The position numbers and the translations under genes were made by a program. The notes under the pieces were generated by a model. It was not told the origin of the DNA. It was given only the letters and a program-made list of their open reading frames with translations, and did not search any database. From Patescibacteria group bacterium (lineage in GTDB: Archaea; Nanobdellota; Nanobdellia; Pacearchaeales; GW2011-AR1): a DNA stretch of 47,309 bases. This document shows, one piece after another, positions 2 to 47,308 of the stretch (within the stretch, counting starts at the first letter, position 1; every line of letters starts with the position of its first letter). The stretch spans positions 1-47,309 of the forward strand of contig JAHYJW010000006.1 of the NCBI GenBank assembly GCA_019428815.1, in the 5' to 3' direction.

Positions 2-900
2 TATAAGATTAGTGGTAATTTAACCTCTTCTTTTATTTTAAAAAATGATTTAGATTTTTGTGATGAAAAAGATTATGAAGATCCAGATAAATCCCCTGGC
101 ATATCAGATTATTGTTTAGCTCAAGGCGCAACAAGTGGTTGGGACCCAATCGGAGACACTTCAAGTCCTTTTCGAGGTACATTTGACGGGCAGAATTATA
201 CTATCTCAAATTTGTTTGTATACCTCCCCTCTACGAGTGAGGTTGGTCTTTTTGGATACCTCGATTCCGCAGAAATATCTGATTTAGAGTTAACGGGTTT
301 TAATTTGACAGGTAAAATAAATGTGGGGGGTATGGTTGGATGGAATTATAAAGGAATACTTAGAAGATTGTCTTTAGATGGAGGAATCTTATATGGTAAT
401 GACTCTGTGGGGGGTTTAGTAGGATATATGGATGGTGGAGCAGAAACCCATTTTTCATTTGTAAAAAATAGTTCAATTGTTTCAGATGTTGGACCAGTGG
501 GAGGTTTAATAGGATACCTCGGCAGTGGTTCGAGTATAACTAATTCTTATTCTCAAAGTTCTGTTGAAGCACTCTCTAAAGATATAGCTAGGGGAGGATT
601 TGTGGGATCTAACGATGGGGGGGCTATTAATTATTCTTATTCTACTGGGGAAGTCTTACCATCCAGTGAGGATAATGGGGGTGGTTTTGCAGGATTATAC
701 AATGCAGGATATGCTACCTCTAATTTTTATGATAGTGAAACTTCGGGATGGAGTACTTCAGCAATGGGTGATAATTTTACAACTAGTTCCATGACTTCCA
801 TAGACATATTCAATGAAAGTTCTTGGGATATAGTTTCTAGAAGAGATTGGACTAGTGAAATTTGGTTTATAGATGATGGAGAAGATTACCCTCGACTTGG
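2..900 (+). repeat. GLUG module 1 (protein-level repeat)
   Basis: Header LDFCDEKD...GATSGWDPIGDTSSPFRGTFDGQNYTISNL followed by GLUG units. Confidence 0.7.
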
Positions 901-3900
901 AAGAGAATGGACCCCCATACCTATTCATTATATTTATTATATTGAAGATTTGTATTATGTTAGAAATAATTCTCGAGACTCATATATTTTAAACAGAAGC
1001 TTAGATTTTTGTACAAGTACTCATTATTCTGAAGATAAAATCTTTCCCAATATATCAAATCTTTGTTTAGCTCAAGGTGCAACAAATGGATGGGTCCCAA
1101 TTGGAAATAGTAGTTCTCCCTTTCAGGGGATATTTAACGGACGAAACTATACTATCACAAATCTTTTCATAAACAGAAGTTCAACAGATTATCAAGGTTT
1201 ATTTGGATATGCTGATTCTGAATCAGATATAAAAAATTTAGGTTTAACAGAGATTGATATATCTGGAAAAAATTATGTTGGAGGTATTGTAGGAAAAAAT
1301 TTAGGTTTAATTTCAAATTCTTCTGTTGAGGGGAATGTCTCTGGAAATGGAAGTTATATTGGGGGTTTTGTAGGAGAGAATCAAGGCTCAATTTCAAATT
1401 CTTTATTTTCTTCTGAAGCTGGAGGTATTCTTGGTGGAGGGCCAAATTATTTAGGAGGTTTTGTAGGTTATAATTACCAAGGTTCAATTACAAACTCTTA
1501 TTCTAAATGTGTGAAAATACATCAAGATATAATCGTAATTATCCCCTCTGGTTATTCTGCAGGTTTTGTAGGTTATAATTACCAAGGCTCAATTACAAAT
1601 TCCTATTCGACTGGTTCTGTTGATTATGTGGGATATACTAACCCTAAAGATAAGGGTTTTGTAGGAGGCCAAAATACAGGGGGGAGTTGGGGAGACAGTG
1701 GAAACTTTTTTGATATGAGTACCTCTGGCCAGATATCTACTACTGGAAATGCTACTGGAAAAACTACAACAGAAATGCAGAATTTTTCAACTTTTGACAA
1801 TGCGGGTTGGGATATTGAACTCTTATGGGATTATGAAGGTGAACTTTGGTTTTTAAACGAAGATTTAGATTATCCAAAATTATTCTTTGAATTTGAAGAT
1901 GATGAAACTTCTCCTACTCATACTATAGGGATTAGTAATAACACTTTTTCAAGCAATCCCACACTTTTTTCAATTAAATGGGATGACAATATTCTTTTAC
2001 AACCCTATGGACAATGGATTTTCTCAACAAATAATTCAGGAACATGGGCAAACGATTCTGCTGTTAATTTTACAGAAACACCAGAATGGGCAAATGTTAC
2101 AAAAACCTTAAATGAAACTCCTTACACAACTATTGGTTACAGATGGTATGCAACAGATACCTTTGATAATCCGGAATCAACTCCAATTTATTCTTTGTAT
2201 ACTTATCCTGTTTTGAATGTTGGTAATGGAACTCTTCAAAATCCTTATGTTGTTAATACTATTGAAGAATTATATTTAATTAATTTCTATCTATCCTCTT
2301 ATTTTATTTTAAATAGAAGTTTAGACTTTTGTGATAATGATAGTTATGACTATCCTGCTTCTTTTCCTGGAGTAGGAGATTTTTGTTCAGTTGAAGGTGC
2401 AACAGAAGGTTGGGAATCTTTGGGAGATAATAGCCTACCCTTCCAGGGGGTGTTTGACGGGCAGAATTATACCCTCTCAAATCTTTATATAAATAGGACC
2501 TCTACTTCGGGAGTTTATCAAGGATTATTTGGATATGCTGATTCGGGATCTCAAATAAAAAATTTGGGCATAGAGGATGTGAATATAAACAGTCGAGGCC
2601 CAGTCGGGAGTTTGATAGGAAGTAATTATGGAACAGTATCAAATTCTTATGCTATAGGGATTGTTCAAATCTACACTTATGGCACTTATTTTGGGGGTTT
2701 GATAGGTTATAATGCTGGAAATATTTCTGATTCTTATACTAACGTTGACTTAATAAAATTAATCTACACCGGAGGAACCTACAGCGGAGGCCTTGTAGGT
2801 TATAATTCCCAAGGTTCAATTTCAAATTCTTATTCTTTAGGAGATGTTAAAGGCGGGGGTACCTTATCCGGTTGGATGGGGGGCCTTGTAGGTTATAATT
2901 CCCAAGGTTCAATTTCAAATTCTTATTCTCAAGGAAGTGTAAATAGAACTTCGGGAACCTTTACGAATGTTGCTGGTTTTTGTGGAAGGAACTATCAAGG
3001 TTCAATTACAAATTCCTATTCTACAGGCCCCGTGTATTATTATGGAGGTACTGACCCCACAGATAAAGGTTTTGTTGGAGGTCAAGATACTGGGGGAGGT
3101 TGGGAAGACAGTGAGAACTTTTTTGATATGAATACCTCTAACCAAACTTCTACTACCGGAAATGCTACTGGAAAAACCACAACAGAAATGCAGAATTTTT
3201 CAACTTTTGATGATGCGGGTTGGGATATAGAATACACAGAGAATTGGATTAATGAAACTTGGTATATTTATAATGGGTTTGATTATCCTAGATTGTGGTT
3301 TGAACCAGATGATTTTAATCCAACATATTCTAATGTGAATCATAATACAACAGAAATAAACAATTCAGTCTTATTTTCTATATTGTGGGATGATGAAAGA
3401 GCTCTAGACCCGGGAGGACAATGGATTTTTTCTACAAACAATTCAGGAACTTGGGTAAATGACGCTGCTGTTAATTTTACAGGAACACCAGAATGGACAA
3501 ATGTTACAAAAACCCTAAATGAAACTTCTGGAACAAAAGTTGGTTATAAATGGTTTGCTAGTGACAATGCCGGAAATTTAATTTCTACTTCTACTTTTGT
3601 ATTATCAACTATAAAAACAAAATCTGGTTTAGTTCCTGAAGATTCAGGAACACCCTTTTATACAAATGAATCGAACCCTGTTTTGATAAATTTAAGTGAA
3701 GGTCAAAGTGAATTAATTACCTGGTGGGTAAATGCTACAGGAGAACTTAATACAACTCATGAATTCTTTGCATTTGCAAATCTTACAAGTGATTCTTTTT
3801 TTAGTGATATCACAGACATTTGGAATGTAACAATTGTAGAAAATCTTCCCCCTAATAACCCTGAAGTTCAAATCTATTCAACAGACCAGAGTAATAGAAC

Positions 3901-4897
3901 CAACCAAAATTTAATCTGTTTTTCGTATATTTCTGCTCCTCAGATAAACGAACTAGATGTTACAGTAAAATGGTTTAAGAATGGAACAGAGAATTTAACT
4001 TTATATTATAATAACAGTTATTCAAGTGGAACTCCTTTTAGTTCTATTCTTTCCTATCAAAATACTTCTAAACATGATAACTGGAGTTGTTCGATGAGGA
4101 TTTTTGATGGATACTACTATAGTGAGTGGGGCAATTCTACAAATTTAACAGTATTAAATTCTCTCCCAACAGTAACTTTGCTTTCTCCCGTTAATGGGGC
4201 AAATACTTCAAGAAGAACCCCCACTTTTTCTTGGAGTGGAACAGACCTGGATGATGATACTTTAACGTACCAAATTAATATCACCCCTGTTCTTTCAAGT
4301 CTTTGTTTTGATGAAGAAAGGTATATCTCAGATTATTCTAACACTGACTATACCCCTAGCTCAGAGAATTATTTTAAGTGTTTATATGATAACAATGATT
4401 ATTACAAATGGAAAGTTAGAGCTTATGATGGAGAAGATTATGGTGGTTGGACTTCGATGTGGAATATCAACATTGTTTCATCTATAGACATGACTCTTTT
4501 GATTAGCGGTATAAATTTTGGAATTTTATCACCTTTAGATTCAAATGATACTACTGATGATATTCCGGAACCAATTAAAATTCAGAATATTGGAAATGCT
4601 TTGATTAATATAACCCTTCAAGGAACATCTTTGTGGGAAAGTGTCGAACATCCTTCAGATTATTTTAAATTTAAAGCCGCGAATAGGACAAACTCTAGTT
4701 CATTTGAGTTTGAAAATTCAATAACAACTTTTACTAATGTTCCCTCGGGGATACAATCTTTTCTCTCAAAATTAAATTGGATTACAGGTAATACTGTGGC
4801 GGATGTAGACTTTTTTATAGAAGCTCCATTAGACGAACCTCCTACAATCACCCCCAGAATATCTAATATCACCTTTACTGCTTCGTTAGCTGAATAA
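2..4897 (+). CDS. GLUG-repeat/Ig-like surface protein, 5'-truncated by window edge (three GLUG modules, then Ig/FN3-like segments)
   Basis: Frame is open from nt 2 through the ORF-track start at 212 (YKISGNLTSSFILKNDLDFC...). Repeated GLUG motifs (VGGLVGYN..G.I.NSYS.G.V) and LDFC...GAT.GW.P.G....PF.G.F.G.NYTI.NL module headers. Confidence 0.85.
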   Translation, partial: YKISGNLTSSFILKNDLDFCDEKDYEDPDKSPGISDYCLAQGATSGWDPIGDTSSPFRGTFDGQNYTISNLFVYLPSTSEVGLFGYLDSAEISDLELTGFNLTGKINVGGMVGWNYKGILRRLSLDGGILYGNDSVGGLVGYMDGGAETHFSFVKNSSIVSDVGPVGGLIGYLGSGSSITNSYSQSSVEALSKDIARGGFVGSNDGGAINYSYSTGEVLPSSEDNGGGFAGLYNAGYATSNFYDSETSGWSTSAMGDNFTTSSMTSIDIFNESSWDIVSRRDWTSEIWFIDDGEDYPRLGREWTPIPIHYIYYIEDLYYVRNNSRDSYILNRSLDFCTSTHYSEDKIFPNISNLCLAQGATNGWVPIGNSSSPFQGIFNGRNYTITNLFINRSSTDYQGLFGYADSESDIKNLGLTEIDISGKNYVGGIVGKNLGLISNSSVEGNVSGNGSYIGGFVGENQGSISNSLFSSEAGGILGGGPNYLGGFVGYNYQGSITNSYSKCVKIHQDIIVIIPSGYSAGFVGYNYQGSITNSYSTGSVDYVGYTNPKDKGFVGGQNTGGSWGDSGNFFDMSTSGQISTTGNATGKTTTEMQNFSTFDNAGWDIELLWDYEGELWFLNEDLDYPKLFFEFEDDETSPTHTIGISNNTFSSNPTLFSIKWDDNILLQPYGQWIFSTNNSGTWANDSAVNFTETPEWANVTKTLNETPYTTIGYRWYATDTFDNPESTPIYSLYTYPVLNVGNGTLQNPYVVNTIEELYLINFYLSSYFILNRSLDFCDNDSYDYPASFPGVGDFCSVEGATEGWESLGDNSLPFQGVFDGQNYTLSNLYINRTSTSGVYQGLFGYADSGSQIKNLGIEDVNINSRGPVGSLIGSNYGTVSNSYAIGIVQIYTYGTYFGGLIGYNAGNISDSYTNVDLIKLIYTGGTYSGGLVGYNSQGSISNSYSLGDVKGGGTLSGWMGGLVGYNSQGSISNSYSQGSVNRTSGTFTNVAGFCGRNYQGSITNSYSTGPVYYYGGTDPTDKGFVGGQDTGGGWEDSENFFDMNTSNQTSTTGNATGKTTTEMQNFSTFDDAGWDIEYTENWINETWYIYNGFDYPRLWFEPDDFNPTYSNVNHNTTEINNSVLFSILWDDERALDPGGQWIFSTNNSGTWVNDAAVNFTGTPEWTNVTKTLNETSGTKVGYKWFASDNAGNLISTSTFVLSTIKTKSGLVPEDSGTPFYTNESNPVLINLSEGQSELITWWVNATGELNTTHEFFAFANLTSDSFFSDITDIWNVTIVENLPPNNPEVQIYSTDQSNRTNQNLICFSYISAPQINELDVTVKWFKNGTENLTLYYNNSYSSGTPFSSILSYQNTSKHDNWSCSMRIFDGYYYSEWGNSTNLTVLNSLPTVTLLSPVNGANTSRRTPTFSWSGTDLDDDTLTYQINITPVLSSLCFDEERYISDYSNTDYTPSSENYFKCLYDNNDYYKWKVRAYDGEDYGGWTSMWNINIVSSIDMTLLISGINFGILSPLDSNDTTDDIPEPIKIQNIGNALINITLQGTSLWESVEHPSDYFKFKAANRTNSSSFEFENSITTFTNVPSGIQSFLSKLNWITGNTVADVDFFIEAPLDEPPTITPRISNITFTASLAE
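930..1900 (+). repeat. GLUG module 2 (protein-level repeat)
   Basis: Header LDFCTSTHY...GATNGWVPIGNSSSPFQGIFNGRNYTITNLFINRSSTDYQGLFGYADS; ends with NATGKTTTEMQNFSTFDNAGWDIE. Confidence 0.75.
2220..3310 (+). repeat. GLUG module 3 (protein-level repeat)
   Basis: Header LDFCDNDSY...GATEGWESLGDNSLPFQGVFDGQNYTLSNLYINRTST; ends with NATGKTTTEMQNFSTFDDAGWDIE, nearly identical in DNA to the end of module 2. Confidence 0.75.
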
Positions 4898-6828: not shown

Positions 6829-7338
6829 ATGCTAAAAAAAAGATTAATTCTCCATTTTAATTTCCTTTTAAGTGTAGTCCTTATATTTGTTATTTTTTTA
6901 ATTGGATTTTTTAGTTACCCCTTCTTAAATCCTTATCTTAATGACCGTATTGAGACACCTTATTCTATTCATGGGAATGTGGTACTATCCCCTACAGATT
7001 TTATAAAAAATGAAAACATTTTTGTTTATCCAGATAAGATAATCATTTATATAAAAAATGCAAGTATCTCTTCTTATGCTGATACAGGTAGCATGGAGCC
7101 TTTCTTAAATCAGGATTCTAATGGTATAAGAGTTAAACCTCTCTCTGAAAAAGACATAAAAATCGGAGATATTATCAGTTTTAGAAAACTTGGAAAAATC
7201 ATTGTTCATAGGGTAATTAATAAAGGATTAGATGAACAAGGAATTTATTTTATTACTAAAGGTGATAATTCACCAATAGAGGATGGTAAGATAAGGTTTG
7301 AAGATATTGAATACGTTACAATTGGTATTTTATATTAA
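6829..7338 (+). CDS. Archaeal-type signal peptidase I (S26B/SEC11-like)
   Basis: N-terminal TM; catalytic-like motifs DTGSMEP, IIVHRVI, ITKGDNSP. Confidence 0.85.
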   Translation: MLKKRLILHFNFLLSVVLIFVIFLIGFFSYPFLNPYLNDRIETPYSIHGNVVLSPTDFIKNENIFVYPDKIIIYIKNASISSYADTGSMEPFLNQDSNGIRVKPLSEKDIKIGDIISFRKLGKIIVHRVINKGLDEQGIYFITKGDNSPIEDGKIRFEDIEYVTIGILY

Positions 7339-7468
7339 TAAATACCTCTTAAAGATTAATTAAATGGCTTTTATTTTTGTTATTTCTTAAAATAAATTTT
7401 CCTTTTTTTTTAGAGATAATCTTTTTATTACTAGTTACTGGGATTATGTGGTTTGATGTTTAGAAATA

Positions 7469-7476
7469 TTTATAAA
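7469..7476 (+). promoter_or_regulatory. Archaeal TATA box (TTTATAAA) for gene at 7498
   Basis: Centred about 25 nt upstream of ATG 7498; same spacing as at 6829 and 8495. Confidence 0.5.
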
Positions 7477-7497
7477 CTAAAAAGTTATAAACTCTAT

Positions 7498-7716
7498 ATG
7501 GGTGATGATAAAATTAAAATGAAGAAAACACAGAAGATAATTGTGTTATTGTTATTCCTGTCTATTTTATTCTCTTTTGCTTCTATAATGTTGAATATTT
7601 CACTTGCTACAAATTTAAATCCATCTCAATTTAACTTAGCAGGATTTTCTAATTCAGGTATTTCTTCGCAAGGGAATATTGGTCTTAGTGTCTTGCCTTC
7701 AGGAGGAGAAGGATAA
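7498..7716 (+). CDS. Small secreted/membrane protein A1 (first member of duplicated A-B pair)
   Basis: ORF track starts at 7453, but TATA spacing supports in-frame ATG 7498. Hydrophobic N-terminus; C-terminus SQGNIGLSVLPSGGEG is homologous to the 8495 ORF. Confidence 0.65.
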   Translation: MGDDKIKMKKTQKIIVLLLFLSILFSFASIMLNISLATNLNPSQFNLAGFSNSGISSQGNIGLSVLPSGGEG

Positions 7717-8333
7717 TGAACTCAGAGAATTTACTTTTAGTTGTTGCAGTCTTTGCTGTTTTTGTTTCATTTGCAGGGGTTATATTTACTTTTAATAGTG
7801 TAAGTGAGTTTAAGGATACCTGGTTTACAGGTTTTTATGTACAAGAAGGGAATGTTAGTTTAAACGTTTTGAGTGTTGCAGCAATCAATTTTACTGTTTC
7901 AGATATCAGTTGGGGTGCTGGGCAAGTTAATGAGTCGGCAGATTATGCTATCTTAAATACTTGTTGTGGGGGCAGTGTTACCGATGGAAACTGGTCAAGT
8001 GTTTCACAGGGATTTGAAATTAGAAATGTGGGTAATGTAAATGTTAGCCTTAACTTAACTTCAGATGACGATGCAGATAGTTTTATTGGGGGGTCAGACC
8101 CTTCCTTTCAGCTTAATGTTACAAATATAGACTCTGGTGCTTGTACCGCAAATGGGATTACCCTTGGCCAATATTTTGAAGTTACCTCTCCCGCACCTAT
8201 GACCATATGTAACCCTTTCCAGTTTCTTAATGCTACAGATGAAATTAGGGTTGATGTAAAACTTCAAGTACCTGGAGATTCTTATACAGGGATTAGAAGT
8301 ACAACTTTGACTGCAGCGTTTTATGCAGTTTAA
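7716..8333 (+). CDS. Surface/pilin-like protein B1 with single N-terminal TM
   Basis: Start overlaps the A1 stop; N-terminal TM, then FTGFYVQEGNVSLNVLS; two Cys pairs; close paralog of 8695..9312. Confidence 0.75.
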   Translation: MNSENLLLVVAVFAVFVSFAGVIFTFNSVSEFKDTWFTGFYVQEGNVSLNVLSVAAINFTVSDISWGAGQVNESADYAILNTCCGGSVTDGNWSSVSQGFEIRNVGNVNVSLNLTSDDDADSFIGGSDPSFQLNVTNIDSGACTANGITLGQYFEVTSPAPMTICNPFQFLNATDEIRVDVKLQVPGDSYTGIRSTTLTAAFYAV

Positions 8334-8465
8334 CTTTTTTACTAAATCTTTTCCTTAAACTAAAAGCTTAAGATTATTTGTATAGTCCCTAAAATTTTAT
8401 AACCCTAACACCCTTTAATTTTTAACCCTTCAGAGTTCCTTTTTACAAATTAAAAAATAAGAATA

Positions 8466-8473
8466 TTTATAAA
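8466..8473 (+). promoter_or_regulatory. Archaeal TATA box (TTTATAAA) for gene at 8495
   Basis: GAATATTTATAAA centred about 25 nt upstream of ATG 8495. Confidence 0.5.
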
Positions 8474-8494
8474 TTCCTGTTCATAAAAACTAAT

Positions 8495-8698
8495 ATGAAA
8501 AAACCGCAAAATACCATTTTGTTGCTATTAATTTTAGCGATAACGTTGTCTGTTGTTTCTATTGTGCTAAATTTAACTCTTGTAACTAGTTTGAAAGAAA
8601 TTCGAATTTATGATGACTCTTTTAGTGCATCTTCATCTACAAAAATATCAGGAGAAGTGGGGATTCATATCCTCCCTTCAAATAGGAGCCCTGAATGA
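8495..8698 (+). CDS. Small secreted/membrane protein A2 (paralog of A1)
   Basis: MKKPQNTILLLLILAITLSVVSIVLNLTLVTSL... resembles MKKTQKIIVLLLFLSILFSFASIMLNISLATNL... Confidence 0.65.
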   Translation: MKKPQNTILLLLILAITLSVVSIVLNLTLVTSLKEIRIYDDSFSASSSTKISGEVGIHILPSNRSPE

Positions 8699-9312
8699 AT
8701 TCTGATAAATTTTTATTGGGTATAGCAATTTTTGCCATTTCAGTTTCTTTTATCGGTGTACTCTTCACTCATTTTACAATAAACGAATATAAAAATCTCA
8801 AATTTACAGGTTTTTATGTACAAGAAGGGAATGTTAGTTTAAACGTTTTGAGTGTTGCAGCAATCAATTTTACTGTTTCAGATATTAATTGGGGTTCTGG
8901 ACAAGTTAATGATTCAGCAGACTATGCTATTTTAGATACTTGTTGCGGGGGCAGTGTTACCGATGGAAACTGGTCAATTGTTTCACAGGGATTTGAAATT
9001 AGAAATGTTGGGAATGTAAATGTTAGTCTTAACTTAACTTCAGATGATGATGCAACTACTTTTATTGGGGGTGGAGGCCCTTTATTCCAACTTAATGTTA
9101 CAAATATTGACTCTGGTGCTTGCACCGCAAATGGGATTACTCTTGGCCAATATTTTGAGGTTACCTCTCCCGCAACTATGGCTATATGTAATCCTTTTCA
9201 GTTCCTTAATGCTACAGATGAAATCAGAATTGATGTGAAAATAAAAATCCCCAAAGATTCTAATACTGGCCTTAGAAAAACTACCTTGAGCGCTGTTGTT
9301 TCTAGTGTTTAA
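8695..9312 (+). CDS. Surface/pilin-like protein B2 (paralog of B1)
   Basis: Same length (205 aa) as B1 with a nearly identical central ectodomain; 4-nt ATGA overlap with A2. Confidence 0.75.
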   Translation: MNSDKFLLGIAIFAISVSFIGVLFTHFTINEYKNLKFTGFYVQEGNVSLNVLSVAAINFTVSDINWGSGQVNDSADYAILDTCCGGSVTDGNWSIVSQGFEIRNVGNVNVSLNLTSDDDATTFIGGGGPLFQLNVTNIDSGACTANGITLGQYFEVTSPATMAICNPFQFLNATDEIRIDVKIKIPKDSNTGLRKTTLSAVVSSV

Positions 9313-16969: not shown

Positions 16970-17980
16970 ATGGTAAAGGTGATAATTAAAAAAGAGGGGT
17001 TAATGGGAAAGGGAAATCTAAATCAATTAAAAAATTATCATAAAAAGATAGAGTTAATAAGAAAAGAAATATCTAAGGTTGTTGTAGGTCAAGAAAAGGT
17101 TGTTGATTCCTTAATAAGAGCTCTTCTTTGCGATGGGCATGTTCTTCTTGAAGGAGTTCCAGGAATTGCAAAAACCTTATTGATTAAAGCTCTTTCAGAA
17201 GTAAGTGGATGTACTTCTAAAAGAATTCAGTTTACAGTTGATCTTTTACCTACTGATATTATTGGGCTTACAACATATACCCCCAATAAAGGATTTGAAA
17301 TTGTGAAAGGCCCAATATTTGCTAATTTTATTATAGCAGATGAAATTAACAGAAGTCCTTCTAAAACTCAGTCCGCAATGATTGAGGCTATGCAAGAAAA
17401 GCAAGTTACAATCGGTAAGGAAACCTTTAAACTTCCCTCCCCATTTTTTGTTATGGCAAATCAAAATCCTTTAGAACAAGGAGGTATTTATTCTTTACCA
17501 GAAGCTCAAATAGATAGATTCTTGTTTAAAGTCATTGTTTCTTATCCCGAAGAAGAAGATGAAAAAAGAATTATGGAGGAAAATGTTACCTTAAAGAAAT
17601 TTGAGGACTTTCAACTTAAACCTATAGTTTCTCCAGAAGATATACTTAAGATGCAAGCTCTTATAAAAGAAATATATTTAGATCCAAAAATAAAAGATTA
17701 CATTGTTAAGATAGTCCGAAAGACTAGGGAAAAGGATTTTCAATATGCAGATTTAATCGAATGGGGAAGTTCTCCTAGGGCAGCTATTGCACTTTTTATC
17801 TCTTCTAAAGCACAAGCTTTTCTAAACGGTAGAGATTATGTTATCCCTAGAGATGTTAAGGAAATTGCATATGATGTTCTTAGACATAGGTTGATTCTTT
17901 CTTATAGGGCTAAAGCAGAGGGTATAGATTCTGATAAGATTATAACTCATATACTCAACGAAGAAGTATCTGTTCCTTAA
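16970..17980 (+). CDS. MoxR-family AAA+ ATPase
   Basis: GQEKVVDSLIRALLCDGHVLLEGVPGIAKT (Walker A), FIIADEINRSPSKTQSAMIEAMQEKQVTIG, FFVMANQNPLEQGGIYSLPEAQIDRFLFK. Start could instead be ATG 17003. Confidence 0.93.
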   Translation: MVKVIIKKEGLMGKGNLNQLKNYHKKIELIRKEISKVVVGQEKVVDSLIRALLCDGHVLLEGVPGIAKTLLIKALSEVSGCTSKRIQFTVDLLPTDIIGLTTYTPNKGFEIVKGPIFANFIIADEINRSPSKTQSAMIEAMQEKQVTIGKETFKLPSPFFVMANQNPLEQGGIYSLPEAQIDRFLFKVIVSYPEEEDEKRIMEENVTLKKFEDFQLKPIVSPEDILKMQALIKEIYLDPKIKDYIVKIVRKTREKDFQYADLIEWGSSPRAAIALFISSKAQAFLNGRDYVIPRDVKEIAYDVLRHRLILSYRAKAEGIDSDKIITHILNEEVSVP

Positions 17981-17988
17981 AACTTAAA

Positions 17989-18888
17989 ATGGAATCTAAA
18001 AGATTGAACCTTAATATCCCTCAAGCAGTTTCGGATTTTGAAAGAGCAGCTAAAAAACTGGAAATAATAAATGTCTTGTATAAGATTGTATTTAGGGGAA
18101 GTGGTTTAGAGTTTGATAGCTATAGAGATTACGATTCCAGTGATGATTCATCTTCTATTGATTGGAAAGCTAGTAAAAGAGCAGGTAAACTTTTAGTTAA
18201 AAGGTATATTGAAGAAAGAGATTTGAAAATTATTTTAGCAATAGATATAAGTGAAAGGATGGTTTTTGGTTCTACTAAAAAATTAAAATGTGAGTATGTT
18301 GCGGAATTGGCAGCAGCGATTTCTCATCTAATTCTCATTTCAGGGGATAATTTGGGGTTTGTTCTTTATAATGATGATATAGTTCAGTTTGTTCCCCCGA
18401 ATAAAAGCCCAAATCAATTTCACCTTTTTGTAGACCTCCTTTCTGATTCTTCTTTATACACTGGAGATTCTAATTTAAACCACACCCTCGATTATCTTTT
18501 AAAAAACTTAGATCCCTCTACTTCAGCTATAATCTTTGTTTCAGATTTTTTAAATACAAGTAAAGAATGTCAAAGAAATTTTAATCTTTTATCCAGTAAA
18601 TTTGAAATAATAGCTTTAGTTGTCAAAGACCCTTTAGATAAGGCTCTTCCAGATATTGATAGGGAAATCTTTATTGAACATCCTGCTTCTGGAGAAACTG
18701 TCCTTATAAACCCTAAAGTTTCTGGGAAGATATATGAGAAAATGGCCCTTGAACAAGAAAAATTTGTTGAAGGAATTTTTAAAGCAACGAATATTGATAG
18801 TTTACAATTAACAACAGACAGATATTTTATAGATCCTCTTGTTGGTTTTTTAAAAGAAAGAATTAAAAAAAGGAGTTTTAGAACTTAA
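17989..18888 (+). CDS. DUF58 family protein (vWA-like)
   Basis: GSGLEFDSYRDYDSSDDSSSIDWKASKRAGKLLVKRYIEERDLKIILAIDIS; directly downstream of MoxR. Confidence 0.9.
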   Translation: MESKRLNLNIPQAVSDFERAAKKLEIINVLYKIVFRGSGLEFDSYRDYDSSDDSSSIDWKASKRAGKLLVKRYIEERDLKIILAIDISERMVFGSTKKLKCEYVAELAAAISHLILISGDNLGFVLYNDDIVQFVPPNKSPNQFHLFVDLLSDSSLYTGDSNLNHTLDYLLKNLDPSTSAIIFVSDFLNTSKECQRNFNLLSSKFEIIALVVKDPLDKALPDIDREIFIEHPASGETVLINPKVSGKIYEKMALEQEKFVEGIFKATNIDSLQLTTDRYFIDPLVGFLKERIKKRSFRT

Positions 18889-18889
18889 A

Positions 18890-19810
18890 ATGGTAGAAAT
18901 TGATTTCATTTATCCGTATTATCTTTTATTTTTGTTGATTATCCCAATTTTAATTTTCATTCATTTTATTTCTTTTAATGTTTCTAAAAACAAAGCAGTT
19001 AGATTTGCTAATTTTGAAGCTATGGCTAAAGTTAAGAATATTGATTTACTTTCTAAAAATGTAACAGTATTGTATCTTAGTTTGATTATTGTGTTTTCTA
19101 TTACCCTCGCTCTTTCTGGGATAATAGTTTATATTGATTCTGATGCAAGTTCTCATTCTTTTGTTATTGCAATAGATGCCTCTTCAAGTATGGATGCAAA
19201 TGATATCCTTCCGAATAGATTAGAGGCTTCAAAAGATGCTGCAAAAAGATTTTTAGATTCCCTTCCCGCTCATACGCCTGTTGGCGTAGTCTCTTACTCA
19301 GGGATATCTTTTATTGAAACAGATATTACAACTTCTAAAATTTTAGCTAAACAAACAATTGATGAAATTGAAATATCTGGAATTGGAGGAACAGATGTAT
19401 ATGAAGTAATAATTACCTCTGTTAATTTATTAAAAGGAGAAGATTCTAAAGCAGTTATCCTTTTTAGTGATGGCCAAATAAATGTAGGGGTTCTTGAATC
19501 TATTATTTCTTATGCTTTAGATAAGGGGGTTGTAATCCACACAATTGGGGTTGGAACTGAAGAAGGGGGGATAACTGGATATGGTGTATCTAGATTAAAC
19601 CCTGAAATCCTTCAAGCTCTTTCGTTTAATACAGGGGGAGTTTATCTTAAATTAGATGAAATGGATTCAGATAACTTATTCTCTGAATTAGTAACCAAAA
19701 CAAGAAAAAAAGTTCCGGTAAATTTTTCCGTTTATTTTATGATTATCTCTTTAGTTTTATTTGTGATATTATTCGTATTAATAAATTCTAAGTATCGTGG
19801 TTTACCCTAA
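18890..19810 (+). CDS. VWA-domain membrane protein (BatA/BatB-like)
   Basis: N- and C-terminal TMs; MIDAS AIDASSSMDANDI, YSGISFIETDIT, ILFSDGQINVG. Confidence 0.9.
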   Translation: MVEIDFIYPYYLLFLLIIPILIFIHFISFNVSKNKAVRFANFEAMAKVKNIDLLSKNVTVLYLSLIIVFSITLALSGIIVYIDSDASSHSFVIAIDASSSMDANDILPNRLEASKDAAKRFLDSLPAHTPVGVVSYSGISFIETDITTSKILAKQTIDEIEISGIGGTDVYEVIITSVNLLKGEDSKAVILFSDGQINVGVLESIISYALDKGVVIHTIGVGTEEGGITGYGVSRLNPEILQALSFNTGGVYLKLDEMDSDNLFSELVTKTRKKVPVNFSVYFMIISLVLFVILFVLINSKYRGLP

Positions 19811-40294: not shown

Positions 40295-42037
40295 TTACTC
40301 TTTAAAAGATTCTTTTGAAAAATTATTCGGGGGGAGACCTGAGAATTTTTCTCTTATTTTTTTACTATTGGGGTTTCTGTACATTTTCTTTTTTTTAAAG
40401 ATTCTCTTAAAAACTTTCACTATAAAATAAACTATAACAAATAATAAAACCAAAGATATTCCGTAAAGGATTTGTTTTATAATTGGAGAAGAAAAAGAAA
40501 TTCCTCTTCTTTTAATCTCAAAGACTGAGCTTGCACTAGCGACCTTTCCGTCAACTGTTGCCTTTACATAAACAATATACATTCCAGGTTTTATCTCTCT
40601 AGGAATATCCAACCAAACTCCTTTTACTAAACTTTTTTGATCCCCAATGGTAATCTGTTCTATGAATCTTAGTAGAATTTTGTTTTCTTCGTCTCTTATT
40701 TGGTACTCTAAATCCGCTTTATTTTCTGTTTTTTCTCCTAAATTGAAAAGTTCTAAGTTTAAAAAAAGGCTTTCTCCAGGATAAATCTTTTTTTCCTTAG
40801 GTTCTATTTCTAGGTAAATATCTAAAAGGGTATTACTAGATTCAATTTCAACCTTTACCGGAATCTCTTTTTTTATTTCTCCAGATTGAATTATTATCTT
40901 GCCTAAATAAAGTTCAGGGAGAATATTTTCATCTGCAGAAAACTGAATTCTAAGTGCCTTTGATTCATTTGCTTCTAAAGTGAAATAAGATTCAGGAATA
41001 TCTATAAATCTTTCTAAGTCTTCACTAGATATGGAAAATGTTAATGGCTCTTGTTGTAAATTAGTTAATACTATGGGGTATACCTTAGTCTCCCCTTGAG
41101 TTAACTTTACTTCTAAATTACTAACACTAACCCAAAAAATTTCTGGGGGTTTAGGAATAACAATAAAACTACTACCCCCACCCCCTCCTGAAGGGGGACT
41201 CGTAGGGACATCTTCTGCACTATATCTTGTAAATTGATTAACACTAAAAATAAAAACTTGAGGACTATTGCTAATTATTGTGCAAATAGAAGAGGGGCAA
41301 GGATTTCCGTCTTTTAGAATTCTGGGATTATTTAGATTTAAATTGTATAAATAAACTGTTGCGGATTTATTTAGATTATTTAAGATAGTTGTATTAATAA
41401 AAACGTTATTAAATGAGACGTTGGTGTATGAATCTAAATCCAGAACATTTCCTGAGATATTTGTTAGATTTAGAGGTTCGTCGAAATAGATTTTTCCAAA
41501 TCCTGGATTCTCTAAAACTACATTTTCTATTTCTTGTATCTCTTCAAACGTTGATTTATTAAAATCTGTTGAAGAACCCCTATCTTTATAATTTTTATAG
41601 TCTATTCTAAACTTAGTAGAATTTACAGAAAAGGTTACATTTTTTGTGGTTGTTCCTTCAGAATTATTTGCAAAAAGATAAAGGGCGTATGTTTTGTCAT
41701 CTTCGGTAACATTAAATTTGATACCCTCTTCTAGAGTTATATTTGAATTTTGATCTAAATTGTACATAAAAGTTATACCATTAGAAATAAACTCTAAAGG
41801 TAGATCTATTTTAGTTAAGTATGTTCCATTTTTTGGTTTTATAATCTCTAAACTTGGGGGAGTTAAGATAACTGAAATTGCTATGGCTAACTCTCCTTGA
41901 GTTATTTTTCCAGTAATCTTTTCTTTTTCTAAAGAATTTGTTTTCGATCCCAAAAAATACAAACTCGTAGAATAAATCAGAAAAATTAAAATAATAAACC
42001 CTAGAGTGGATAAGTATAAAAGATTCTTTTTTTTCAT
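40295..42037 (-). CDS. Secreted CARDB/NEW3-like surface protein with TM anchor
   Basis: N-terminal signal anchor, KITGKITQGELAIAISV, SGGGGGSS linker, beta-sandwich repeats, C-terminal TM QILYGISLVLLFVIVYFIVKVFK. Confidence 0.75.
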   Translation of the reverse strand: MKKKNLLYLSTLGFIILIFLIYSTSLYFLGSKTNSLEKEKITGKITQGELAIAISVILTPPSLEIIKPKNGTYLTKIDLPLEFISNGITFMYNLDQNSNITLEEGIKFNVTEDDKTYALYLFANNSEGTTTKNVTFSVNSTKFRIDYKNYKDRGSSTDFNKSTFEEIQEIENVVLENPGFGKIYFDEPLNLTNISGNVLDLDSYTNVSFNNVFINTTILNNLNKSATVYLYNLNLNNPRILKDGNPCPSSICTIISNSPQVFIFSVNQFTRYSAEDVPTSPPSGGGGGSSFIVIPKPPEIFWVSVSNLEVKLTQGETKVYPIVLTNLQQEPLTFSISSEDLERFIDIPESYFTLEANESKALRIQFSADENILPELYLGKIIIQSGEIKKEIPVKVEIESSNTLLDIYLEIEPKEKKIYPGESLFLNLELFNLGEKTENKADLEYQIRDEENKILLRFIEQITIGDQKSLVKGVWLDIPREIKPGMYIVYVKATVDGKVASASSVFEIKRRGISFSSPIIKQILYGISLVLLFVIVYFIVKVFKRIFKKKKMYRNPNSKKIREKFSGLPPNNFSKESFKE

Positions 42038-42153: not shown

Positions 42154-42735
42154 TTATTTCTTTTTTTTGTTAAGATTTAGAGTATATATAATTACCCCTA
42201 CTAAAACCCCTATTATTAAAATTCCTAAAATAAATGGTGCATAGTTCTTTTTTTCTGCTTCTTCACCGTATAAAACACTTTCTTCAGTATCAACTACCTG
42301 TACTGGAAGTGTTTTAGAAATTGCAGAAGCCATTTTAATCATACCCCCCTCTCCAGGAGAAACTTCTTGAAAAAGTATTGGGACTTGATAAATGTCCCCT
42401 ACCTTAGCATTTGAAGGAACCTCTATTTTGATCCTAACAGGAATGTCACTAGATCCAAAAGGAACTAAATAATCTGTATTCTGATCCATTAAGCTAACTA
42501 TAACATTAGCCTCATTTACACTTGCTCTTAAGGTTACATCTTCTTCTCCTACCATATTTTGTAGTTCTAGTGTAACAATCGTTGATTCCCCGGGGGAAAG
42601 TTTTATTGGATTAGTCCTCCAATAAGGACTTGAAACTCCTGTAGAAGTTATAAGGGGGATTAAAGCAATTAATAATAATCCGGATAAAGCAAAAAGGATT
42701 TCATTCCTATTAAATTTTTTCTTTTTAGTCTCCAT
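42154..42735 (-). CDS. Secreted beta-sandwich protein with N- and C-terminal TM
   Basis: FALSGLLLIALIPLITS N-terminus; NPIKLSPGESTIVTLELQNMVGEEDVTLRASV; C-terminal TM FILGILIIGVLVGVIIYTL. Confidence 0.7.
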   Translation of the reverse strand: METKKKKFNRNEILFALSGLLLIALIPLITSTGVSSPYWRTNPIKLSPGESTIVTLELQNMVGEEDVTLRASVNEANVIVSLMDQNTDYLVPFGSSDIPVRIKIEVPSNAKVGDIYQVPILFQEVSPGEGGMIKMASAISKTLPVQVVDTEESVLYGEEAEKKNYAPFILGILIIGVLVGVIIYTLNLNKKKK

Positions 42736-42784: not shown

Positions 42785-43699
42785 TTATCCAATTACTTCA
42801 GTAATCCAAGGGCCTAAACCTGCAGTTGTATAATCTTGTGCTAAGATTCCTGTTGGAAGTCCCTTTAAACAAAAGTATAATGTTTCTTGTCCAGATGTTT
42901 GATTGTTATAATTTAAGGTGTTATTCCCCCTGTATAAGGCCGCACTAGTTATTTTTTGAGCAGTATCATTTTGCATAATATCTCCACTACATCCTGTAGA
43001 GATTATATCTACAGTAAAGTTATTTGCAAATATGGAATATCCTGAATTAGGAACCCCTATTAAATCTAAAGCTGTAACATTAACCTCTAACCCATCTGCA
43101 TTACCTGTATTATTAATTACAATAGGGTCATTATCTGAGCCTATATCTGTACTGGAAGGGCCTACTCCTGGCCATGTTAGAGCTTTTGGTGATAATGCCA
43201 TTGAAGTTAGTTCGTTGTATTGAAATGTTGTTGAAGAATTTTCTGCTGAATCTTCAGAGTTATCTTTAATTGAGACATTAATTGTCCAGTCCCCTGCTTC
43301 ATCAAAATACCACATATCTATGATACAGGTATAATTTTTTCTGTTTCCAGATGTTGAACCCGCAACACAACTTTCATTGTATCTTGTTGTTTCTCCAATT
43401 CTTTGGAAATAAGCCTTTGCAGTACTGTCATTGATATCTGAAACTCCATTTTCATCTTGGACTGTGAAATAGAATTCAATACTCTTAGTACCTGATTCAA
43501 CAGGACTTTGTAAAGAGATTGTTTCTACAATTGGAATTGTTGGAGCAGCATTTCCTACAGTAATTGTTACAGTTACATTCTCTTTAGTCGCCCAACCTGT
43601 AACTTGTCCCCATAAATCAGAAAAAAATCCTGCAGAAATCAGAGGTATAACTAATAACAAAGAAAACATCATAATTGTTATTATCTTCCCTCTTTTCAT
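42785..43699 (-). CDS. Secreted surface protein, paralogous to the C-terminal ectodomain of 43781..47308
   Basis: Signal peptide; VTGWATKENVTVTITVGNAAP; KAYFQRIGETTRYNESCVAGSTSGNRKNYTC.IDMWYFDEAGDWTINVSIK shared with the neighbour. Confidence 0.75.
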   Translation of the reverse strand: MKRGKIITIMMFSLLLVIPLISAGFFSDLWGQVTGWATKENVTVTITVGNAAPTIPIVETISLQSPVESGTKSIEFYFTVQDENGVSDINDSTAKAYFQRIGETTRYNESCVAGSTSGNRKNYTCIIDMWYFDEAGDWTINVSIKDNSEDSAENSSTTFQYNELTSMALSPKALTWPGVGPSSTDIGSDNDPIVINNTGNADGLEVNVTALDLIGVPNSGYSIFANNFTVDIISTGCSGDIMQNDTAQKITSAALYRGNNTLNYNNQTSGQETLYFCLKGLPTGILAQDYTTAGLGPWITEVIG

Positions 43700-43780: not shown

Positions 43781-46700
43781 TTATTGTGATATTTTTTCTT
43801 TTGCTTTTGTGTATACTGTCCAGATGTTTCTTTGGTCTCTTTCAAGTAATTCTGCTATTTCTATAAACTTGAGTCCTTTTTGTTTCATATACAATATTAC
43901 TGATTCTAAGATTGTTAGTTTTTTATTTTTAAATATTGATAATGGAATCAAAAATCCTTTATCTCTCTTTTTTTTGATTGATGTTAGTTGTTTCTCTTTA
44001 GCCTTTTTATAAGCAGTCCAAATTGTTCTTTCATTTCTTTGAAGTATGTTAGAAATTTCTTTATAACTCATATTTAAATTCTCTTTCATATATCCCACAA
44101 GAGATTCTAGAGCACCTAATTCTTTTGAGAAGATTGTTGATGGAATGTTCTTTTCCTGTTCTATTAATTTCAAGATATCTTTTTTACCAAACCCATATTT
44201 CTTAGATAACTTTTCTATAAGTATGTCTATAATCTCCTTTTTACCTAAGCTGTATTCTTCTTTAAGTTCATCAAGGATCAAATCAATTGCTCCAAATAAT
44301 TTATCTTCTCCAAGTCTTTTTTTACTTATTCTTCTTTTCTGTTTTTTTGCAGGAATTATTGCAACTAATAAAATTGTTATCTCCCAAGGGCCTAATCTCG
44401 AAGTTGAATACTCTTGGGAAGCTATGTTTGTTGGGAATCCCCTTAGACAAAAGTATAATTTCCCTTGTCCAGATGTTTCATTTTGGTAATTTAAAGAATT
44501 GTTTCCTCTTGAGAGTATGAGACTGGTATTTATAGAAGTAGAATTTTGTGTCGTTGTTCCGCTACATCCATCAGATTCTTTATCCACACTAAAATTATTT
44601 GCAAATATCGAATAATCTAAATTTGTGAGCCCTACTAAATCAAGTGCAGTGATATTAACACTCAAACCTTCTGCATTCCCAGTATTATTAATAACCAAAT
44701 AATTACTCGCAGTAACATTAAAAACCCCTAAGGATAAAGGAGAAGGCCATGTTAGAGTTGTTGGGGATAATACCATTGCAGTTAATTCATTATACTGGAA
44801 GGTCGTTGAAGAATTTTCTGCATAGTCCCCTGCATTATTTTTAATTGAGACATTAATTGTCCAGTCCCCTGCTTCATCAAAATACCACATATCTATGGTA
44901 CATGTATAATTTTTTCTATTTCCAGATGTTGAACCCGCAACACAACTTTCATTGTATCTTGTTGTTTCTCCAATTCTTTGGAAATAAGCTTTTGCAGTAG
45001 AATCTTCTAACTCTGAAACTCCCATCTCATTTTCTGCTGTGAAAATAAAACTAATTTGTTTTATATTTCCCTCAATAGGATTTTGTAAAGAAATTGTCTC
45101 AACAAAAGGGATTGTTGGTCCAGGTATTGATTCATATCTTGGAAAAATAATCTTTGAGTCCCCTGTTGTCCCATTTGTTGCATTAAAACCTAAAACAGTA
45201 TACCTAGCGTTTGGCCCTCCACCAGCAGTTCCTCCAACATATTGGACTCTTACCCTTTTATTTGTTAAATTTTTTGGACTTATTTCTTCTCTAAAAGTGT
45301 ATTTAACTAAGGTTTCAGTAAGAAGATCATTTCTCCCCCCTTTTGTTTTGGTCATAATTAACTGGGGGTTAGAAGAACCATCGGAATCTACAATATGAAC
45401 ATTCAGTGTTGCAATGGGGTCTCCTCCTTCCGTAGCACTTTTACGAAGCCATAATTCTAAGGTCCAGTTTGAATTTTCTAATATATCATAATCTAAAACT
45501 GGAGAAAGAAAATTTTGTGTTACTAATCCAATCTCTTCAAGGTTATTCCCAGATTCTAAAAGTAATTCATTCCCGGTTCTTAAAAATGAAGATGCATTAG
45601 GAATTTCAACAGATAAGGTAGTGATTTCTGTTTGATTCCAATTGCCTGAATTATCAGAAGCATACCATTTATATCCCACATAATTATAGGGGGTGTTACT
45701 TAATCTTTTTGTAACATTTGCCCATTCTGGTGTTTCTGTAAAATTAACCGCAGAGTCATTTACCCAACTTCCAGAATTGTTTGTAGAAAAAATCCATTGT
45801 CCACTTGAATTTAATGCCCGTTCATCATTCCATAAAACAGAAAAAAGTGTGGGGCTATAGATAGTAGTGTTATTATGAGAGATGTTAGAATAAAAAGGGG
45901 ATGTGTTATCAGGCCCTAATGAAGTGACTAAGGTGAATATTTCGGCTTGATTCCACTTTCCATCATTATCTTTTGCATACCCTCTATACCCGATTGTTAT
46001 CCCTAACGTTTCATTTAAGATTTTTGTAACATTTGCCCATTCTGGTGTTTCTGTAAAATTAACTGCAGAGTCATTTACCCAACTTCCTGAGTTATTTGTA
46101 GAAAAAATCCATTGTCCATTAGGATGTAAAGCTACTTCATCATTCCATTTAATTGAAAAGAGTGTCGATTCATTTATTTTTGAACTATTGTAACCTGAAT
46201 CAGAATACACAGGAGGTAAGCCTTCCCACCATAATCGCGGATAATCTGTTTCATCCTTTATGAACCATGTTTCATTAGTCCAATTTTCTAATCTTTGAAT
46301 ATCCCAACCTGCATTGTCAAAAGTTGAAAAATTTTGCATTCCTGTTGTAGTTTTCCCCGTAGCATTTCCTGTAGTTGAAGTTTGATTAGAAGTATTTATA
46401 TCAAAAAAGTTTCCTATATCTTTCCAGCCCCCCCCTATATTCTGCCTTCCCACAAAACCTTTATCTGTTGGATCAGGACCAGAATAATAAACAGGACCTG
46501 TAGAATAAGAATTTGAAATTGAACTCTGATAATTATGCCCTACAAAACTTGCAACATTATCAGGTTCAGTTATTGAAGTGCTTATTATAACTCCCTCAGA
46601 ATAAGAATTTGAAATTAATGATTGATTAATCCCCCCAATAAAACCTCCCACATACAAATTTCCAGTTACGTTTACAAAAGAATAAGAATTAGAAATCTTT

Positions 46701-47308
46701 GCGTTTTTAAGACAATATCCCACTAATCCTCCTGCGTAGTTTTCATTAATTGATACATTTACGAGAGCATAAGAATTGTTAATACTCCCTCCTTCGAGTA
46801 TTCCAACAAGCCCTCCGGTGTAGCTCCCTAATTCTCCCCCCTTAACTGTCCCAATAAAATAAGACTTTTCTATATTTTGTTCGCTTTTTCCAATTAACCC
46901 CCCCAAAATGGTATCCGCATTTATAACTCCTGTTGCATAAGAATTTGAAATAGTTCCGTTATTGTAACCTGCTAAACCTCCGACAAATGATGATCCTGAA
47001 ATGTTAACGTCTATTAAACCCAGATTGTTTATTGCACTCCCAAATTTGGCATAACCTATTAATCCCCTGTATTCTTTGCCTGTGTTACCTATGAACAAAT
47101 TTGAAATAGTATAATTCTGCCCATCAAATGTACCCTTAAAGGAATCTGAAGTATCCCCGAGTGGATCCCACCCATTTGTTGCACCTTGAGCTAAACAATA
47201 ATCTGATATGCCCGGATATGAACCTGGAGCTTTGTAAGAACCCTCGTTACAAAAATCTAAATCATTTTTTAAAATAAAAGAAGAGGTTAAATTATTTCTG
47301 ATATTATA
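43781..47308 (-). CDS. GLUG-repeat/Ig-like surface protein with C-terminal TM-like segment and tandem HTH-like tail; 5'-truncated by window edge
   Basis: Open frame beyond the ORF-track Met at 47098 to the window end (YNIRNNLTSSFILKNDLDFC...). GLUG units, two Ig-like repeats, WEITILLVAIIPA then basic residues, then two ~55 aa repeats ending RTIWTAYKKAKEK / RNIWTVYTKAKEK. Confidence 0.8.
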   Translation of the reverse strand, partial: YNIRNNLTSSFILKNDLDFCNEGSYKAPGSYPGISDYCLAQGATNGWDPLGDTSDSFKGTFDGQNYTISNLFIGNTGKEYRGLIGYAKFGSAINNLGLIDVNISGSSFVGGLAGYNNGTISNSYATGVINADTILGGLIGKSEQNIEKSYFIGTVKGGELGSYTGGLVGILEGGSINNSYALVNVSINENYAGGLVGYCLKNAKISNSYSFVNVTGNLYVGGFIGGINQSLISNSYSEGVIISTSITEPDNVASFVGHNYQSSISNSYSTGPVYYSGPDPTDKGFVGRQNIGGGWKDIGNFFDINTSNQTSTTGNATGKTTTGMQNFSTFDNAGWDIQRLENWTNETWFIKDETDYPRLWWEGLPPVYSDSGYNSSKINESTLFSIKWNDEVALHPNGQWIFSTNNSGSWVNDSAVNFTETPEWANVTKILNETLGITIGYRGYAKDNDGKWNQAEIFTLVTSLGPDNTSPFYSNISHNNTTIYSPTLFSVLWNDERALNSSGQWIFSTNNSGSWVNDSAVNFTETPEWANVTKRLSNTPYNYVGYKWYASDNSGNWNQTEITTLSVEIPNASSFLRTGNELLLESGNNLEEIGLVTQNFLSPVLDYDILENSNWTLELWLRKSATEGGDPIATLNVHIVDSDGSSNPQLIMTKTKGGRNDLLTETLVKYTFREEISPKNLTNKRVRVQYVGGTAGGGPNARYTVLGFNATNGTTGDSKIIFPRYESIPGPTIPFVETISLQNPIEGNIKQISFIFTAENEMGVSELEDSTAKAYFQRIGETTRYNESCVAGSTSGNRKNYTCTIDMWYFDEAGDWTINVSIKNNAGDYAENSSTTFQYNELTAMVLSPTTLTWPSPLSLGVFNVTASNYLVINNTGNAEGLSVNITALDLVGLTNLDYSIFANNFSVDKESDGCSGTTTQNSTSINTSLILSRGNNSLNYQNETSGQGKLYFCLRGFPTNIASQEYSTSRLGPWEITILLVAIIPAKKQKRRISKKRLGEDKLFGAIDLILDELKEEYSLGKKEIIDILIEKLSKKYGFGKKDILKLIEQEKNIPSTIFSKELGALESLVGYMKENLNMSYKEISNILQRNERTIWTAYKKAKEKQLTSIKKKRDKGFLIPLSIFKNKKLTILESVILYMKQKGLKFIEIAELLERDQRNIWTVYTKAKEKISQ

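Follow-up and report, generated by a model that had tools for sequence, protein, structure and literature searches.

A tandem sigma-4-like HTH tail on a giant archaeal surface protein: a probable autoregulator of the operon that encodes it

DPANN archaea are mostly uncultured, and a role in symbiosis is ascribed to their surface proteins; to our knowledge, gene regulation in these archaea is essentially unknown. In ECF sigma/anti-sigma operons such as RpoE-RseA, AlgU-MucA and FecI-FecR, the sigma gene overlaps the gene of a protein composed of a helical N-terminal domain, a transmembrane (TM) segment and an extracytoplasmic part.

Membrane-bound regulators of archaeal surface-appendage genes are represented by ArnR and ArnR1 (PMC6396743). 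EnfR is a repressor that acts on a pseudo-palindrome and covers positions -44 to +3 from the start codon (PMC10570040). In the sections of Castelle et al. 2021 considered here, sigma-70-like proteins are reported as prevalent in Woesearchaeota, with no anti-sigma factor found and an unclear mechanism of control (PMC8204110). The family fam00359 of that paper is possibly the helix-turn-helix (HTH) family analyzed in the present study; the same sections describe no operon with surface proteins, no operator and no fusion. A literature search of open-licence papers likewise returned no published description of the fusion or of an HTH/surface-protein operon.

The window, i.e., the whole stretch of 47,309 nucleotides that was analyzed, is contig C7 of a 9-contig, 645-kb genome that is 85% complete. 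At one end it carries ORF 43781-47308 on the minus strand, which comprises 1175 aa and is open at the contig end. GLUG repeats were detected in this ORF in five stretches (Pfam PF07581, 63.1 bits vs. a cutoff of 20.5), together with Ig-like domains, the last Ig strand being W975-EITI, followed by LLVAIIPA. The features of the locus are as follows.

40295..42037, minus strand: Ig-like protein with TM, 580 aa; conserved operon member
42154..42735, minus strand: Ig-like protein, 193 aa, C-terminal TM; conserved operon member
42785..43699, minus strand: secreted short paralog of the C-terminal Ig part of the giant, tail-less, with its end at the W.I strand; same operon
43781..47308, minus strand: giant GLUG/Ig-like surface protein, C-terminal 1175 aa including the fused tandem-HTH tail; truncated at its 5' end by the contig boundary
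43793..43948, minus strand: HTH unit 2, residues 1121-1172; putative reader of the left half-site TACATA
43826..43828, minus strand: Asn1161 (tail residue 168), HTH2 recognition helix; covaries with operator base 4
43991..44146, minus strand: HTH unit 1, sigma-4-like, residues 1055-1106; putative reader of the right half-site TAAGTA
44024..44026, minus strand: Thr1095 (tail residue 102), HTH1 recognition helix; covaries with operator base 14
44150..44314, minus strand: helical linker between basic cluster and HTH1, residues 999-1053; also present in stand-alone homologs
44315..44347, minus strand: basic cluster KKQKRRISKKR after the hydrophobic segment, residues 988-998
44348..44386, minus strand: WEITILLVAIIPA, residues 975-987; final Ig beta-strand passing into a short hydrophobic segment, possibly a short stop-transfer/TM

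The first-pass annotation had described an abrupt change from ectodomain through a hydrophobic run and KKQKRRISKKR to a two-repeat helical tail. This was confirmed at 43781-44400, as was the end of the neighboring gene 42785-43699, which stops directly after LGPWITEVIG.

The N-terminal half of the window giant was found on another contig of the same genome (G000:C1:1-1747, minus strand); it is 582 aa long and contains a helical cytoplasmic domain and a TM. The left end of C1, where this ORF runs off the contig, holds the only strong copy in the genome of the N-terminal domain known from relatives. In the same-genus genome G205, the tail half and the N-terminal half form a single ORF of 1411 aa, whose downstream gene matches window 42785-43699 and whose divergent upstream gene matches C1:2041-4038. 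Because of this synteny, the ends of C7 and C1 are regarded as two halves of one gene; the halves were treated separately and the sequence was left unjoined.

Several other surface-related genes were observed in the window. A second GLUG/Ig surface protein at 2-4897 (+) runs off the left contig end and has no HTH tail, and the genes following it resemble the downstream part of an operon with a separate HTH gene (L045). A signal-peptidase-like protein is encoded at 6829-7338 (+), beside two near-identical 205-aa secreted paralogs (7716-8333 and 8695-9312, +) and Ig-TM proteins; the region 6829-9312 (+) resembles a gene cluster for a surface filament or for secreted subunits. At 16970-19810 (+), MoxR-like ATPase, DUF58-like and vWA-like genes, assigned by eye, lie in a row beside a surface-protein cluster.

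The two repeats of the tail, which had been suspected of being HTH units, were confirmed as such. They are identical at 26 of 53 aligned columns, with an alignment score of 121 where shuffled sequences averaged 22.8 (sd 4.7; z ≈ 21). Pfam placed Sigma70_r4_2 above cutoff on HTH unit 1 (3.8e-6), and the same model matched 29 of 30 tail relatives (best 5e-12). Structure prediction followed by Foldseek had been set beforehand as a test, and the predicted fold was indeed HTH, with two tri-helical HTHs modeled by AlphaFold2 from 64 homologs at a pLDDT of 90.8.

Single HTH units superposed on sigma-4 structures at 1.8–2.1 Å, and the superposition on EnfR (8hno) reached 0.6 Å over 44 residues at 43% identity. 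The model of the whole two-domain tail yielded weak Foldseek E-values, none below 1e-3. NCBIfam matches to sigma70-ECF and Tfx/EnfR models remained below cutoff, and TIGR00721 scored 17.4 bits on the tail vs. a cutoff of 60.25. A sigma-2 domain was absent in Pfam and NCBIfam scans of 30 members, which returned region-4-type matches only, below the cutoffs of the sigma models.

An EM motif search of 69 upstream regions, run without a prior, returned TACTTACATAATAAGTA, an inverted repeat TACTTA-N5-TAAGTA, with a log-likelihood of 351 vs. 39–49 for dinucleotide-shuffled sets. The 17-bp inverted repeat TAC(A/T)TA-N5-TAAGTA was located in front of fused operons and of split operons, in which the HTH domain is a separate gene, alike. 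When a PWM was trained on split operons, 10 of 14 fused operons scored above the 95th percentile of the upstream regions of 339 other genes (p = 2e-7), and a fused-trained PWM placed 40 of 55 split operons above that percentile of the same controls (p = 5e-25). The highest score among the control upstream regions came from L119_1293, which, judging from the position of the N-terminal domain, seems to be where a giant with an interrupted ORF really starts.

Sites were also present in 18 of 20 further fused operons. At least two sites were found in 43 of 55 split and 16 of 20 further fused operons vs. 5 of 341 controls; in the fused members with a genuinely long hydrophobic segment (G300, G364), the operator was weak or none was recognisable. 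Spacings between sites clustered at 21, 31, 42, 52, 63 and 73 bp, with a best period of 10.5 bp (R = 0.73, n = 96; null 95th percentile 0.28). This 10.5-bp phasing favors protein binding on one face of the DNA over an RNA element.

The window's genome contains only two perfect copies of the operator, C1:1748-1764 and C1:1799-1815, both directly upstream of the start of the window giant at C1:1747. Weaker matches in this genome were no commoner than those for the reversed pattern. A TATA box, TTTATAAG, is positioned at -31 between the two operators, and the same position was noted in several relatives. Since the promoter looks leaderless and its TATA box lies between the two operators, binding of the tail there would most likely repress its own operon. 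Judged from sequence evidence, the tail very probably binds the operator array of its own operon.

The assignment of the two HTH units to half-sites was derived from covariation. Across 58 operons, each alignment column was checked against motif base 4. Residue 168, which lies in the HTH2 recognition helix, ranked far above all others; Thr occurs there with T (33) or C (2) and Asn with A (22), with one exception. When the mirror base, 14, was checked, residue 102 ranked first, which occupies the corresponding position in HTH1, with Thr accompanying A/G and Asn accompanying C/T. Read on each half-site's own strand, the commonest pairings are Thr-pyrimidine and Asn-purine at both positions.

Covariation at residue 168 would therefore place HTH2 on the left half-site, and that at residue 102 HTH1 on the right; the two contacts would lie 10 bp, or one turn, apart. 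The window protein carries Thr1095 and Asn1161, and its own half-sites, TACATA and TAAGTA, are those predicted by the rule. The base-4 trait changed only about 4–5 times on the tree, which is too few for a sign test, and for this reason the base-4 covariation is not significant by independent contrasts. The strength of the covariation would lie instead in the top columns having been located twice, at equivalent positions.

Two paralogous HTH operons per contig were observed in L137, L141, L145, L149, L151 and L167. Base 4 differs within each of these pairs, and residue 168 matches in each. The second-type operon of the pairs often precedes a lipoprotein-like protein (..ASCN..).

Taken as a whole, the tail is best read as a DNA-binding autoregulator, joined covalently to the giant surface protein and acting on the operon of that protein, with a probability of roughly 0.7. 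The arrangement suggests that cells tie the production of surface proteins to the proteins themselves. The chain would be anchored with its N-terminus inside the cell by the TM following the cytoplasmic helical domain, the GLUG/Ig ectodomain would be exposed outside, and the chain would re-enter the cytoplasm through the short hydrophobic stop-transfer and the poly-basic segment, so that the tail could reach DNA. The level of the surface protein, and perhaps also its engagement or assembly state, would then feed back on its own transcription. Within this reading, the negative sign of the autoregulation is favored to a fair degree, and a coupling of tail activity to the state of the ectodomain is putative and leans towards the doubtful side.

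The same operator and HTH evidence would also suit a membrane-tethered sensor-regulator, in which host contact or a ligand is sensed through the ectodomain, so that DNA binding of the tail at its own operon is turned on or off, and the combination of DNA-binding domain, TM and large ectodomain fits the definition of a transmembrane transcription regulator (PMC10269533). However, the membrane segment available for signal coupling is very short, and the ectodomain varies between genomes from about 500 to more than 3000 aa whereas the tail is conserved, and this alternative is considered unlikely.

The autoregulator reading extends to a split form of the system. The domain was found in 125 of 279 genomes of the phylum Nanobdellota, mostly as a gene of 150–200 aa, and in related Woesearchaeota it is a separate small protein encoded just before a surface protein. 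The split HTH gene typically overlaps the downstream gene, most often by 4 nt, and the partner is an N-terminal TM protein, commonly a surface protein. Such an overlap with a downstream N-TM protein gene was recorded for 46 of 55 HTH genes vs. 37 of 445 control genes from the same loci (p = 5e-33, an optimistic value because the loci are related). In this form, the HTH protein would be made in translational coupling with the surface protein.

Many split partners begin with a helical cytoplasmic domain of about 90 aa that is common to the fused giants. This domain has no known family in Pfam, no anti-sigma family was matched in sequence searches of Pfam and PDB sequences, and its PDB-sequence matches were dismissed as chance, coiled-coil-like hits. 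Within the family, 36 genomes have both the N-terminal domain and the tail, 7 and 8 have one without the other, and 129 have neither (p = 4e-23).

The fused and split versions are regarded as the same operon with the HTH moved, because several split-type giants stop exactly at the W.[IV] strand where fused giants continue into the tail, and because the same three genes (short Ig paralog, Ig-TM and Ig-TM2) lie downstream of both. As had been proposed, the tail proved to be a modular addition to the surface protein, occurring in fused and stand-alone forms.

In all four-gene operons (e.g., window 42785-43699, L166 11436-12452), the giant and the short paralog have in common a C-terminal Ig region whose final strand, G.W.[IV].[IV], is strictly conserved, as though one assembly or sorting element closed the two proteins. 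A divergent tyrosine-recombinase-like integrase adjoins one HTH/surface-protein operon (L046 7532-8356, +).

The co-occurrence of the two domains, together with the gene order, the 4-nt overlaps and a layout of helical domain, TM and ectodomain that matches ECF operons, raises the alternative of a sigma/anti-sigma-like pair, in which the split HTH protein is sequestered by the giant's N-terminal domain until a signal frees it, and of which the fusion would be a derived, permanently tethered version. The Woesearchaeota sigma-70-like proteins, for which the sections considered of PMC8204110 name no anti-sigma factor, would agree with it. Against this stand the absence of a sigma-2 domain, the fact that archaeal RNA polymerase uses no sigma, and an N-terminal domain that matches no anti-sigma family and is lacking in some split partners; such a pair is considered unlikely. 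Within the autoregulator reading, the split HTH protein may be held by the N-terminal cytoplasmic domain of the surface protein in a sigma/anti-sigma manner; such control by the partner is putative and somewhat doubtful.

In the autoregulator reading, the tail lies in the cytoplasm. An N-terminal TM (KD 2.4–3.15) was found in 7 of 7 complete relatives and in the window giant's own N-terminal half. The distance from the Trp to the basic cluster is 8–17 residues in 41 of 45 fusions, including archaeon GW2011_AR20 with 8, and 21–27 in 4, and the caution already attached to the shortness of the hydrophobic stretch is upheld. AlphaFold modeled no TM helix at this segment, with a linker pLDDT below 50, and the inverse relation between hydrophobic length and basic charge expected of a stop-transfer was not seen at the junction (rho ≈ 0). 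No conserved Met from which a free tail could start was detected between the basic cluster and HTH1, and in 31 of 48 members there was none at all.

In composition, the fused tails resemble the cytosolic split proteins. Sequons per 100 aa amount to 5.43 in the ectodomain, 0.69 in fused tails and 0.8 in split HTHs, and K+R content is 3.8%, 21.5% and 18.7%, respectively. On the strength of this composition and of the cognate operators kept at fused operons, the tail is probably cytoplasmic. A tail outside the cell, binding extracellular DNA or another polymer in adhesion or DNA scavenging, would account for a hydrophobic segment that is too short for a standard TM and not modeled as one; but operators of matching specificity are conserved before fused operons, the tail is sequon-poor and Lys/Arg-rich like its cytosolic homologs, and stand-alone homologs start without a signal segment, which makes this location very unlikely.

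The fusion itself was observed repeatedly. Of 51 strong tail matches in the window's family, 46 are fusions whose open frames span 460 aa or more, while the other five are mostly contig fragments; the window's genome has a single strong tail copy, the one in the window. Dozens of orthologs were found that keep ectodomain and tail together. An independent fusion is present in the closed chromosome of archaeon GW2011_AR20 (CP010426.1). The fused/split label has to change twice on a tree of 64 tails, once for a Pacearchaeota clade and once in AR20, whose fused and stand-alone tails are sisters (support 100/99). As 127 of 180 genomes of the family gave no tail match, the tail is not essential in the family.

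The remaining explanation is an artefact, either from a frameshift or misassembly or from the reading of two genes as one, which had been named beforehand as grounds for abandoning the fusion. It finds a foothold in the division of the window gene between two contigs but can be dismissed in view of the 46 in-frame fusions among 51 strong matches from independent genomes and of the closed AR20 chromosome.

Some fused giants, in L036 (G241), L063 (G402) and L069 (G344), carry two tandem tails and hence four HTHs. Apparent fusions in G061 and G053 were rejected owing to runs of N in the records. One contig labeled Methanosarcinales (L155) and one labeled 'bacterium' (L128) are probably mis-binned, their copies grouping with Woesearchaeota and Pacearchaeota sequences.

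The autoregulator reading yields a regulator family that has a putative operator, a putative residue-base code and a defined target, each of which could be tested on purified components in ordinary laboratory hosts. The family includes a DNA-binding regulator that became joined to the end of a giant surface protein on two independent occasions, and it would offer a concrete candidate partner for the Woesearchaeota 'sigma factors without anti-sigma factors', as far as these are described in the sections considered of PMC8204110. More tentatively, and at somewhat less than even odds, a control system widespread in Nanobdellota may be envisaged. An adhesin-like giant would be matched in it with a two-headed sigma-4-like regulator, either as separate, anti-sigma-like partners or within one fused chain. 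A single recognition-helix residue in each HTH would set the operators and insulate them, and every surface operon of such a minimal symbiont would thereby sense and limit its own product or host engagement.

When compared with known systems, the fused protein shares with ToxR, CadC and the archaeal ArnR/ArnR1 the combination of a DNA-binding domain and a membrane anchor in one chain. Both the DNA-binding domain and the TM named in the definition of PMC10269533 were found in the same chain, and judged from its sequence the protein is a probable transmembrane transcription regulator in that sense, in an arrangement undescribed in the papers found. The first-pass annotation had suggested a ToxR-like sensor/regulator. 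The DNA-binding role stood, whereas the likeness to ToxR did not, because the HTH is C-terminal, tandem and of the sigma-4/Tfx-EnfR type and the chain adds an N-terminal cytoplasmic domain and a TM. The ToxR/CadC type has an N-terminal OmpR-type winged HTH before a single TM, which the fused protein lacks. Unlike ToxR, CadC and ArnR, it combines a C-terminal tandem sigma-4-like HTH with a giant GLUG/Ig ectodomain and a second, N-terminal cytoplasmic domain, and its operator set in the window's genome is confined to its own operon. ArnR/ArnR1 may serve by analogy as a precedent for membrane-bound control of archaeal surface appendages (PMC6396743).

The split form is like ECF operons in that a small sigma-4-like HTH gene comes first and overlaps that of a TM partner (46/55 vs. 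37/445). It differs in having no sigma-2 domain, two HTHs per chain, an archaeal host and a partner N-domain without detectable anti-sigma kinship; by its sequence features, it is organized like a sigma/anti-sigma operon, yet is not one.

Tfx/EnfR of Thermococcus onnurineus (PDB 8hno) contains an archaeal sigma-4-like HTH, as does the tail. EnfR has one N-terminal HTH and a C-terminal alpha+beta domain and is a soluble dimer, whereas the tail has two HTHs and no such domain. By analogy, EnfR may be taken as a precedent for an archaeal sigma-4-like HTH that represses from a pseudo-palindrome (PMC10570040).
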